Shown here one piece after another: positions 13,755-49,669 of a DNA stretch of 64,000 bases. The notes beneath the pieces are model-generated. The model searched no databases. It was not told the DNA's origin and saw only the letters and a list, made by a program, of their open reading frames with translations. The stretch is from Chitinophaga pinensis (GTDB taxonomy: Bacteria; Bacteroidota; Bacteroidia; UKL13-3), in NCBI GenBank assembly GCA_945860865.1, contig CAMARW010000002.1:62001-126000 (forward strand), given 5' to 3'. Each line of letters begins with the position of its first letter. The stretch's first letter is position 1. The translations under genes and the position numbers were made by a program.

Positions 13755-15233
13755 TTGAATAAGTACGATTTTACATCATTGGTTAAATCTCCAGAAAATA
13801 TTGGAGAAAAAGACATAAACAATTTAACAGAATTGGTAAAACAATTCCCCTATTTTGCTGTGGCTCAAAACCTATTGGTTAAAGCGTTTCATAATACCAA
13901 ACATTATGAATACGACAAACAACTTAAACAAGCTGCGCTGCAAGCAGGAAACAGGTCTGCACTATACAATCTAGTGCACAATCTTCCGCAAGAAACAGAC
14001 AGCACACAATGGCTTGGCCAATCCTTAGAAAAGCTAGCATTGAAAGATGTTTTCGCTCCAGATTCAATTAATAAGCCAATTGAAATAACACCAGTAGCGC
14101 CTATTTTAGAAGTTATTAAAGAACAAAACCCAGATACACCCGCAATACCTATCCAAAGTAATCCAACAGAGATTTTAGAGTCAGAAATATTGATACAGCC
14201 TAATGGTAAATTTGAAAAGTTTATTCCCAAAGCTAATTCAACTAGTTTATTGCCTTCAGAGCAATCTATTATTCCAGATGTAGAGGATGAATTGGCCAAC
14301 ATACTGTCAAATTTCGATATTAACAGTTTAAATGAAACTCCAAACACGCCTTCAACACGAATAACAGCATCAACAATTTCTGCCGAACCAATCATTGATG
14401 CAGTTGATGCAATTGAGACCGTTTTACCCAAAACTGAAGAATCAGTAGCTGAGTTTATAGAGGAAGATTTAAGTTTTGTAGCTAATTTACAAGAAAAGTT
14501 AGCCATTCAAGCAGCTAATCAGGTATCTCAAGGCATAAAAGAAACAATTTTAATAAGTGAAGGTATATCAGGAAAACTTCCTGAAGAAATCGCCGTTGAG
14601 CCTCCAACACCAGTTTTAATTGAAAACACAATTAAGCCAAACACAGATTCAACCACCACTGAAAATAACATTGTTGAATTAATTAATAAGCAGCCTAAAA
14701 TAGTTGCGCCTGCTGCCTTAAAACAAGAAACAATTGAGGCACCCAATGGTATTACAGAACTTGGAAGTCTTTCTAATTATGATGTAAACGAATACTTGGC
14801 TCCATTATACTTGCAGGTTAAGTATGATGATAAGTTGTTTCAAACCTCTTTTGAAGAAGTTTTTGAAAAACAACATTCAGCTAAACCTATTAGGCCTAAA
14901 AATATTGAACCATTTATATTATCGAAAGAAGAAGATCCAAAAATTGTAAAAGATGCTAGCGCAGTTGAATCCATCTTAGATAAGTTTATCAGAGAAAATC
15001 CCAGCATAGCTCGCCCCAAAAGCGAGTTTTATAGTCCGGTAAACATGGCCAAGCAAAGTGCCGAAGAAAGTGAAGAAATTGTAAGTGAAACCCTTGCTAA
15101 AATTTACACCAAACAAGGCCTTTACAAAAAGGCTATTATAATGTATGAAAAATTAGGGTTGCATTATCCCGATAAATTCACTTATTTCGCAGCCCTGATA
15201 GAACAAATAAAGTCAGCACATAATATAGAATAA
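13755..15233 (+). CDS. Uncharacterised TPR-like protein upstream of secG
   Basis: A 492-aa protein without signal peptide, starting at TTG 13755 (MNKYDFTSLVKSPENIGEKD). Residues 1-100 are helical (LTELVKQFPYFAVAQNLLVKA resembles a TPR-like pair). Residues about 110-330 are low in complexity, rich in E, P, T and I, and probably disordered. The end (about 440-485: ETLAKIYTKQGLYKKAIIMY) is a clear single TPR motif. It recurs next to secG in Bacteroidota but its role is unknown to me. Its stop is 4 bp before the secG ATG, so the two are coupled. Confidence 0.8.
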   Translation: MNKYDFTSLVKSPENIGEKDINNLTELVKQFPYFAVAQNLLVKAFHNTKHYEYDKQLKQAALQAGNRSALYNLVHNLPQETDSTQWLGQSLEKLALKDVFAPDSINKPIEITPVAPILEVIKEQNPDTPAIPIQSNPTEILESEILIQPNGKFEKFIPKANSTSLLPSEQSIIPDVEDELANILSNFDINSLNETPNTPSTRITASTISAEPIIDAVDAIETVLPKTEESVAEFIEEDLSFVANLQEKLAIQAANQVSQGIKETILISEGISGKLPEEIAVEPPTPVLIENTIKPNTDSTTTENNIVELINKQPKIVAPAALKQETIEAPNGITELGSLSNYDVNEYLAPLYLQVKYDDKLFQTSFEEVFEKQHSAKPIRPKNIEPFILSKEEDPKIVKDASAVESILDKFIRENPSIARPKSEFYSPVNMAKQSAEESEEIVSETLAKIYTKQGLYKKAIIMYEKLGLHYPDKFTYFAALIEQIKSAHNIE

Positions 15234-46527: not shown

Positions 46528-47850
46528 ATGGAAAAAAGGTGCATTTTTTGGTTTAGACGCGATTTAAGACTGGTTGATAATGTAGGATTATTTCATGCCC
46601 TAGGTTCAGGCTGTAAAGTGCTTCCTATTTTTATTTTTGATACTGCTATTTTAGATAAACTTAGCAATAAAAAAGATCTGAGGCTAAACTTTATTCACCA
46701 GCAAATAGGTGAGATGCAAAAAGAGTTAGCAACTTTCAAATCTGGCATAGAAGTATTGGTTGGTAAGCCCGAAGAGATTTTTCCGCTGTTGCTCAAAAAA
46801 TATGCTTTTGCCAGCATTTATTGCAACCATGATTACGAGCCTTATGCCAGAGAACGAGACAAACAAATTGAAAGCTGGTCCACCAATAATCAAATAACAT
46901 TTAAAAGTTTTAAAGACCAATGCATTTTTGAGAAAGATGAAATTTGCAAAGATGATGGAAAGCCTTATACCGTATTTACTCCTTACAGTAAAAAATGGAA
47001 AAAGGCTTTAATAAACAGCAACCAAGAAAGCATACCTGCTGCTTTTCAATCACACGCTAGCGAAGACCTTCTGCATAATTGTGAGAATAATTTTAGCTTT
47101 AGCACTATGCCAAGTCTCTCAAAGATGGGTTTTGAGGCGAATGACTACCCGTTTCCTGGAAAAACTGTTTCACAAGATATCATAAAAAACTACACCCAAA
47201 ACAGGAATTTTCCCGGAATTTCTGGCACTACCCAACTGGGTATTCACTTTAGATTTGGGACCATCAGTATTAGAGAAAAAGCGCGAAAAGCATTGAAATT
47301 AAACGAAACCTTTTTAAATGAATTGATTTGGAGAGATTTTTACATGCAAATTCTGTGGCACTTTCCCCATGTAACTCAATCTGGCTTTAAGCCTGCTTAT
47401 AATAAAATAGAGTGGTTAAATAACGAAAATGATTTTGAGGCATGGTGTGCAGGCAAAACAGGCTATCCTATTGTTGATGCTGGGATGCGTGAATTAAATA
47501 AAACAGGATTTATGCACAACCGAGTGAGGATGATTGTGGCGAGTTTTCTTTGCAAACACCTATTAATAGATTGGAAATTGGGAGAGCAATATTTTGCAGA
47601 AAAACTTTTAGATTTTGATTTAAGTGCCAATAATGGTGGCTGGCAGTGGGCATCTGGAAGTGGCACAGATGCAGCACCTTATTTTAGGGTTTTTAACCCG
47701 CAGTTGCAAACAGAAAAGTTTGACAAGCAGTTAACTTATATTAAAAAATGGGTGCCAGAATATGGGACTAGTCATTACCCAAAACCAATTGTAGAGCATA
47801 CTTTTGCAAGAAATAGATGCTTAAGTACTTATAAAAAAGGATTGGCTTAA
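46528..47850 (+). CDS. phrB: Deoxyribodipyrimidine photolyase
   Basis: A 440-aa blue-light DNA repair flavoenzyme. The N-terminal alpha/beta antenna domain begins CIFWFRRDLRLVDN. The C-terminal FAD domain holds LIWRDFYMQILWHFP, TGYPIVDAGMRELNKTGFMH, NRVRMIVASFLCKHLLIDW and the signature DLSANNGGWQWASGSGTDAAPYFRVFNP region. This is the class I CPD photolyase layout; a cryptochrome role cannot be excluded by eye. It is 69 bp after the serine hydrolase and could belong to the same operon. Confidence 0.93.
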   Translation: MEKRCIFWFRRDLRLVDNVGLFHALGSGCKVLPIFIFDTAILDKLSNKKDLRLNFIHQQIGEMQKELATFKSGIEVLVGKPEEIFPLLLKKYAFASIYCNHDYEPYARERDKQIESWSTNNQITFKSFKDQCIFEKDEICKDDGKPYTVFTPYSKKWKKALINSNQESIPAAFQSHASEDLLHNCENNFSFSTMPSLSKMGFEANDYPFPGKTVSQDIIKNYTQNRNFPGISGTTQLGIHFRFGTISIREKARKALKLNETFLNELIWRDFYMQILWHFPHVTQSGFKPAYNKIEWLNNENDFEAWCAGKTGYPIVDAGMRELNKTGFMHNRVRMIVASFLCKHLLIDWKLGEQYFAEKLLDFDLSANNGGWQWASGSGTDAAPYFRVFNPQLQTEKFDKQLTYIKKWVPEYGTSHYPKPIVEHTFARNRCLSTYKKGLA

Positions 47851-47971
47851 AAAAAATTTGCATTTTATTTTATATTCCTTACTATTGCAATATCAATCAG
47901 GTTGCCTTAGGTTTTATAGGTTTTAACTATCATCTACCATAAGGTTGGTTGTTTCACATTCACTCATTCAC

Positions 47972-48085
47972 ATGTACAATTTAAATTCATTAACCAACAA
48001 GCTCGTGACTGAGCTAAAAGAAATTGCTAATATTTTTGGCATATCTTAGGCTAATGAGGACAAACAATAATTAATCAAAGCTATT
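47972..48085 (+). pseudogene. Rho N-terminal domain in frame with rho but interrupted by TAG and TAA
   Basis: From ATG 47972 the frame reads MYNLNSLTNKLVTELKEIAN then IFGIS, TAG (48047-48049), ANEDKQ, TAA (48068-48070), LIKAI, and continues without shift into LENQKSKPQ at 48086, where the uninterrupted rho frame begins. ELKEIA....GI, KQ and LIKAILENQ match the Rho_N helical (SAP-like) domain that opens bacterial Rho. The second stop stands where an acidic residue (GAA or GAT) is expected before LI. So the domain is recognisable on both sides of two nonsense codons with the frame kept. Decayed domain, sequencing error or readthrough are the options. Confidence 0.75.
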
Positions 48086-49669
48086 TTGGAAAATCAAAAA
48101 TCTAAACCTCAAAAATCAGTTGACGAAAAAATTGAAGAAGGAGAAGAATCACCTAAAAAAAGAGGGAGGCCGCGTTTACCCAAGGCAGAAAAAATAACAA
48201 CTAAAGTAGCTAAGGTTTCTGTTGAACCAGCTTCAAATAAGATAGAAACGCCTATTAATGAAGCAATAGATACACCTGTGCTAGAAGTTGAAAAAACAAA
48301 AGAAATAGCGGCAGAAATAGAGCCAAAAATAGGGGAGAAAATTATTGTAGGTTTAGATAAACCAGCTTATGTTAAAGCACCCAATCCAAACCAAGTTTTG
48401 GGTGAGCGCAAAGACAATAAATGGCGCAATGAAAGAAACCAAAATCGCCCTCAGCGACCAGAAAACAATATAGGAAATAGCAACGAAAATAAGCAATCGC
48501 AAGAGAATAGACCTGTTTCTGAGAACAAACCAGAGCGCGTTTCTTATCAAGAACTAGATGCCATTGTTAGCTCTGAAGGTGTGTTAGAGATGATGGCCGA
48601 TGGTTATGGCTTCTTACGTTCATCTGATTACAACTATATGCCATCACCGGATGATGTTTATGTTTCGCCTTCACAAATTAAATTATTCGGATTAAAAACT
48701 GGAGACACTTGTTTTGGAACTATTCGTCCGCCTAAAGAAGGTGAAAAATATTTTGCCCTTGTAAAGGTAGAATCTATCAATGGCAGAATACCCTCTGAGG
48801 TACGCGATAGGGTTGCTTTTGAACATTTAACGCCTTTGTTTCCAGATGAGAAATTACGCTTGGCAGATAATTCAACCACCTACTCTACCCGTATCATAGA
48901 TTTATTAGCCCCTATTGGTAAAGGTCAGCGTGGCTTAATCGTGGCTCAACCCAAAACGGGTAAAACCATTCTATTAAAAGACATTGCCAATGCCATAGCT
49001 AAAAATCACCCAGAAGTATATCTGCTCATTTTATTGATAGATGAACGTCCGGAGGAGGTTACCGATATGCAGCGCAGTGTGCGCGCAGAAGTGGTGGCTT
49101 CAACCTTTGATGAGCCTGCAGAAAAGCATGTAAAACTGGCCAATATTGTTTTGGAAAAAGCCAAGCGATTGGTAGAATGCGGACATGATGTAGTAATATT
49201 ATTAGACTCTATTACCCGCATGGCACGCGCCTTTAATACAGCACAACCAGCATCGGGTAAAATTTTATCGGGAGGTGTAGATGCAAATGCTTTACACAAG
49301 CCAAAGCGCTTTTTTGGTGCAGCCAGAAAAATTGAAGATGGCGGTTCTTTAACTATTATCGCTACTGCTTTAACCGAAACCGGATCTAAAATGGATGAGG
49401 TTATTTTTGAAGAGTTTAAAGGTACAGGAAACATGGAGTTACAATTAGACAGAAAACTGGCTAATAAGCGCGTATTCCCTGCCATAGATATTATTTCATC
49501 TAGCACACGCCGTGATGATTTATTGCTAGAAAAAACTGCTTTACAAAGAATTTGGGTATTGCGCAATCACTTGGCAGATATGAACCAAGAGGAAGCGATG
49601 AATCTAATGTTAAAAAACATGCGAGCAACCAAAAATAATGAAGAGTTTTTAGCTTCTATGAATGGCTAA
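48086..49669 (+). CDS. rho: Transcription termination factor Rho
   Basis: A 527-aa (from TTG 48086) hexameric RNA helicase that ends transcription. Residues 1-150 are a disordered, charged, Asn-rich linker with an AT-hook-like [10 protein letters not shown], common in Bacteroidota Rho. The cold-shock RNA-binding domain is about 155-235 ([20 protein letters not shown]). Walker A is AQPKTGKT (287-294), Walker [16 protein letters not shown], and the secondary channel loop [20 protein letters not shown]. No ATG is available before residue 169. TTG 48086 is the only conventional start upstream of the linker, and it lies inside the ancestral Rho_N helix. It overlaps convergent recF by 14 bp. Confidence 0.95.

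Follow-up and report, generated by a model that had tools for sequence, protein, structure and literature searches.

In the window, meaning the whole 64,000-nucleotide stretch of DNA that was analyzed, the gene encoding the termination factor Rho has very probably lost its N-terminal Rho_N domain through nonsense decay, with Rho most likely restarting at TTG 48086. Under this explanation, which is built on sequence comparison, the old promoter, leader, and ATG persist, translation from the old ATG would end at TAG 48047 after 25 codons, and working Rho would start at TTG 48086, inside the former last helix of Rho_N. Initiation at this TTG could be direct, on a weakly structured stretch rich in A and U, or could follow translation of the short leader open reading frame (ORF) as re-initiation. 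The predicted product is a Rho motor with its RNA-binding and ATPase domains intact, whose N terminus would be a basic low-complexity tail carrying KKRGRP. Both the exact start codon and the absence of a long Rho are what we infer from the DNA. Features of the locus are as follows.

47857 to 47887, + strand: promoter-like pair of TTTG (47857 to 47860), 19 nt, and TACTATTG (47880 to 47887), from sequence
47894 to 47951, + strand: possible hairpin in the leader, preceding the old start, with a folding energy of −14.7 kcal/mol and z −2.57
47972 to 48085, + strand: Rho_N relic with its frame kept, from translation, Pfam, genus search, our own HMM, and the relatives' alignment
47972 to 48049, + strand: 25-codon leader ORF remaining from the start of Rho_N, old ATG to TAG, from sequence
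48080 to 48099, + strand: 20-nt run GCTATTTTGGAAAATCAAAA containing the presumed restart TTG, identical in the window's genome (G000), in G005, and in intact G001, G006, and G002
48086 to 49669, + strand: rho, 527 codons from TTG 48086, with low-complexity N-terminal tail, RNA-binding domain, and ATPase
48155 to 48172, + strand: basic motif KKRGRP near the new N terminus, seen across genus members

A Rho_N relic in frame with rho

The relic sits between the rho core and an upstream gene, presumably photolyase-like, that ends at 47850. From ATG 47972 the window sequence reads MYNLNSLTNKLVTELKEIANIFGIS, a stop, ANEDKQ, a second stop, and LIKAIL, all in frame with rho; the stops are TAG (48047 to 48049) and TAA (48068 to 48070), and no frameshift precedes the otherwise normal rho. 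The earlier note had described a broken Rho_N domain running in frame into rho, and its coordinates and translation were confirmed. Profile matches agree: with X at the stops, the relic scored 18.7 bits (E 0.0017) against Pfam Rho_N (PF07498; cutoff 24.9), the same region of relative L003 scored 28.9 bits, and the window's rho did not reach the gathering cutoff in its uninterrupted frame. In a search of 19 genomes of the genus, the relic was the best Rho_N match in the window's genome (18.3 bits, flagged "1 TAG, 1 TAA"). An HMM of our own, made from the domains of 16 relatives, gave the relic 54 bits with its stops as X and gave intact genus members 65 to 78 bits, 8 of these intact members having been in the HMM; within the open frame of the window's rho it found 3.6 bits.

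The Rho_N likeness of the relic exceeds chance. The relic also aligns without gaps over 36 codons with Rho_N of G001 and G006 at the same locus, consistent with common descent from the domain that is intact in relatives. Comparison with relatives bore out the domain assignment in that the same DNA position there encodes an intact Rho_N. One detail did not hold, since the TAA had been placed at an acidic position and the genus members that were read carry G, S, T, or R there.

The window's genome (2.59 Mb, 13 contigs, 99.9% complete) has a single rho match, which ruled out a second rho elsewhere in the genome search. A Rho_N supplied from another locus was rejected as well, the only other match in this genome reaching 12 bits against the cutoff of 24.9.

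Rho_N in the genus, the family, and other Bacteroidota

The genus search found a rho match in 18 of its 19 genomes, the exception being G016 (68% complete); N-terminal translations were compared in all 18 and codons in 15 (all but L017 to L019). Rho_N was intact in 11 of the 18, a broken relic in 3, and absent in 4. The intact members (G001, G002, G003, G006, G008, G010, G011, G012, G013, G015, and G018) have the domain in rho's open frame with an ATG before it, and the Pfam Rho_N cutoff was exceeded in 11 of the 19 genomes. Among the broken genes, the window's has two stops and no indel, G014 is frameshifted (its alignment shows a 2-nt gap) with the old ATG kept, and G005 has a heavily diverged relic with TAA where G001 and G006 have AAA. 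No inactivating lesion of G000 is held in common with G014 or G005. In G004, G007, G009, and G017 there is no trace of Rho_N, and an ATG start stands immediately before the basic motif.

Compared with the aligned codons of 11 of 11 other genus members, TAG is 2 to 3 bases off and TAA 1 to 3; in the nearest four (G001, G005, G006, and G014) both stops are 2 to 3 bases off, and G002 is one base off the TAA. A tree from six concatenated genes (8064 columns, 6984 kept) did not settle the order of G000, intact G001, and G014 plus G005, and grouping the three broken genomes together was not rejected (p 0.363). Within the window's clade, the broken genomes G000, G005, and G014 measure 2.5 to 2.6 Mb and the intact G001, G002, and G006 measure 3.2 to 3.8 Mb. 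A tie between loss and small genomes was tried across the family and is not claimed, because the ranges overlap (means of 3.06 Mb for 11 lost versus 3.35 Mb for 48 intact).

Over the 36 Rho_N codons, dN/dS was 0.07 for the intact pair G001-G006, 0.30 for G000-G001, 0.81 for G005-G001, and 1.0 between the relics of G000 and G005, with other intact pairs scattering from 0 to 0.75. Because 0.30 falls within this scatter, the G000 value proves nothing by itself, and the case for lost selection in G000 rests on the stops, not the rate. Decay in G000 seems to be recent. Outside Rho_N, conservation of rho is strong: in 19 of 21 pairs the core gave a dN/dS of 0.00 to 0.03 (synonymous sites were close to saturated, and two pairs could not be computed), and these values ruled out rho as a pseudogene.

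Across the family, 63 of 64 genomes had a rho match and 62 were assessable, G071 being cut by a contig end. With an intact call defined as Rho_N of at least 20 bits inside rho's open frame, 50 of the 62 were intact and 12 were not: the seven genus members above (G000, G014, G005, G004, G007, G009, and G017) together with G024, G047, G048, G072, and G063. G024, G047, and G048 (loci L012, L121, and L159) belong to another genus of the family and have rho without Rho_N, and their genus-mate G046 (L122) is intact. G072 (L137) has a separate decayed relic in which the old ATG has become ATA and another ATG has arisen immediately ahead of the basic motif. A tree of 59 rho cores (L130, L157, L158, and L159 were dropped as cut, short, or unassessable) requires 5 changes of Rho_N state, 4 of them forced by well-supported branches; if only losses are allowed, the count on the drawn tree is 5 or 6, according to whether G000 has a loss in common with G014 and G005.

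A wider sample, the best 80 named Bacteroidota loci of a longer list, overlaps the family. Rho_N lay inside rho's open frame in 75 of these best 80; of the others, L047 scored 18 bits, contig ends truncate L079 and L105, and no Rho_N was seen in L051 or L078. The records of L051 and L078, which have no Rho_N before rho, are titled Chitinophagaceae and Cytophagaceae MAGs. Across the family and these best 80 loci, Rho_N loss is thus recurrent, yet uncommon. Private lesions that differ among relatives, and complete loss that was repeated, favor what the earlier note had put forward as a recent loss of Rho_N with a start at TTG 48086. The losses in the family range from newly acquired stops to complete absence, with the motor nearly unchanged throughout, a natural experiment on the purpose of Rho_N, on a basic tail as its replacement, and on relocation of a start codon without loss of function.

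The remaining Rho protein and known systems

The window's rho contains Rho_RNA_bind (PF07497) at residues 164 to 236 (112.1 bits), ATP-synt_ab (PF00006) at residues 268 to 473 (98.4 bits), and the motif PKTGKT. It lies above the cutoffs of both full-length Rho models, with 630.4 bits versus 509.45 for TIGR00767 and 657.5 versus 315 for PRK09376. In its RNA-binding and ATPase domains, single copy, and strong conservation it resembles Rho as defined by TIGR00767, and it differs in having no Rho_N helix bundle and a probable non-ATG start. KKRGRP or a close variant (KRRGRP, KKRRGRP, or KKRGRKP) was found in 18 of 18 genus members, including those that have completely lost Rho_N.

Rho without Rho_N is not unheard of, since a model named paralog_Rho2, "Rho, short form" (NF041509), already exists, the absence of Rho_N from it being deduced from its length. 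The 360 positions of that model start at residue 166 of the window's protein, in the RNA-binding domain. Unlike NF041509 proteins, the window's rho is no paralog, scores 470 bits against a cutoff of 628, and keeps a long N-terminal tail.

In the window's rho, as in other Bacteroidota Rho proteins (PMC10284900), the RNA-binding domain is preceded by a long stretch of low complexity. For Bacteroides thetaiotaomicron Rho, PMC13269538 describes Lys/Arg-rich motifs of a disordered region that bind RNA and drive condensation. The window's rho likewise has a basic low-complexity region before its RNA-binding domain; unlike in the B. thetaiotaomicron protein, the tail is the N terminus itself, and the likeness is one of composition. 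Composition suggests that the window's tail is disordered. A role proposed for Rho_N is to assist in directing nucleic acid to the primary binding site of Rho (PMC12133298 and PMC4499133), and the tail may take over this guiding of RNA from the helix bundle. A literature search, with most subscription journals outside its scope, found no paper that describes recurrent Rho_N loss or a short Rho initiated internally.

Translation start and competing readings

The earlier note had counted 169 codons of rho free of ATG, which was essentially right: the next in-frame ATG lies 168 codons past TTG 48086 (M169, with the TTG as codon 1). Because KKRGRP is kept in all 18 genus members with rho, Rho_N losers included, the start is expected upstream of this motif, and TTG 48086 is the sole ATG, GTG, or TTG from the TAA to KKRGRP. 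Independent support comes from G024, G047, and G048, where the interval from the final in-frame stop to the basic motif holds a single ATG, GTG, or TTG, again a TTG, in the common stretch TTG GAA GAA GAA AAA GAT. For Flavobacterium johnsoniae, PMC6847099 reports A-3, A-12, and A-13 as favorable and U as the first base of the start codon as disfavored. TTG 48086 has A-3, A-12, and A-13; its G at −6 and its initial U count against it.

Around the TTG, 25 of 28 bases of G001 are kept in all three broken species and 26 in intact G006. Directly downstream, identity to G001 falls to 27 to 32 of 45 bases in all of them; conservation around the TTG is an island, not a boundary. A 12-nt insertion in G000 downstream of the TTG keeps the frame. 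The 20-nt run identical in five species compares with a longest identical run of 14 nt for the same species in the 1065-nt core, and resampling of core codons gave P values of 0.0036 for 60 codons and 0.024 for 355. These odds are generous because the five species were picked after the alignment had been seen, because a sixth, G014, departs from the run at one base (ATT to ATG immediately before the TTG), and because 5′ regions may change more slowly, as the lower synonymous change near the 5′ end of the G001-G006 pair indicates (pS 0.46 versus 0.70).

An older origin of the start is compatible with decay and restart. In this reading, which we hold to be possible though unlikely, the TTG is an old internal start, and across the clade the ATG would give a long Rho and the TTG a short one. 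The infB gene, whose in-frame internal starts yield long and short IF2, would offer a precedent for two Rho forms encoded by a single gene, which here is hypothetical. The identity of GCTATTTTGGAAAATCAAAA across two stop-bearing and three intact species fits an internal start, as do the product of residue-specific codon identities for the five species (4e-5), the ATG TTG that G014 carries at the same spot, and the TTG or ATG found at the codon of TTG 48086 in 6 of 11 intact genus members. Against it, the codon is ATT or CTT in the other 5 (L006, L007, L009, L011, and L014). The data suggest internal initiation in intact genes and go no further, because the run in the three intact species alone is not significant (P values of 0.06 for 60 codons and 0.32 for 355). 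A two-start state would explain the ease of Rho_N loss, stop-bearing species keeping the short form only. If so, repeated Rho_N loss would be the collapse of a two-form state to the short form, and a core termination factor would have been caught shedding a nucleic-acid-guiding domain in favor of a basic tail.

Slightly more doubtful is the idea that the relic now serves as a leader ORF, a possible route to the restart: ribosomes would start at the old ATG, stop after 23 to 30 codons, and re-initiate 21 to 40 nt farther on. Rho synthesis might then be coupled or attenuated in the fashion of a leader peptide. In 3 of 3 broken species the old ATG is retained with a short ORF that ends 21, 36, and 40 nt before the TTG, but retention of the ATG in all three is not improbable under recent decay, and the ORFs are unlike one another in length, sequence, and frame, one being out of frame with rho. 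The promoter box and leader are also kept. The promoter-like pair at 47857 to 47887 is of the Bacteroidota type; its second box, as TA[CG]TATTG, occurs in 13 of 13 rho leaders and its first box, TTTG, in 8 of 8 aligned rows. Folding of the leader gave z scores of −2.57 for the window's sequence and −2.11 for that of L007, and the L015 leader folded no better than shuffled sequences. RNAalifold found 0 pairs of covarying structure across 13 rho leaders, and none of the known RNA families matched among 13 rho loci up to an E value of 1.

Decay with restart at the TTG is also far preferable to regulated readthrough, which the earlier note had offered as an alternative and in which passage through TAG and TAA would yield a long Rho beside the short one. 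The kept frame and the two recognizable halves of Rho_N speak for it; nevertheless, it is highly improbable and is disfavored because readthrough of stops cannot bridge the G014 frameshift. Selection for the frame across the stop was not seen in the sisters, one having the frameshift and the other, G005, a diverged relic with its own TAA. TAA and TAG are ordinary stops in the window, ending 37 of 39 open frames of at least 250 codons, which counts against readthrough, led us to reject an altered genetic code, and agrees with the earlier view that a changed code is unlikely. A sequencing or assembly error in the window's genome could account for the TAA by one base relative to G002, but it too is very improbable given two separate stops, each 2 to 3 bases off the codons of the nearest four species, no indel, sisters with other lesions, and a genome 99.9% complete in 13 contigs.

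A second gene in the window, at 13755 to 15233 (492 codons), also starts at TTG, with a TAG three codons upstream, further TTG codons at positions 9 and 27, and no ATG before codon 431. Of 18 other genus genomes, 17 (all but G011) have a match that starts at its residue 1, and in the two relatives whose first codon was read, G005 and G014, that codon is TTG and the frame is open further upstream.
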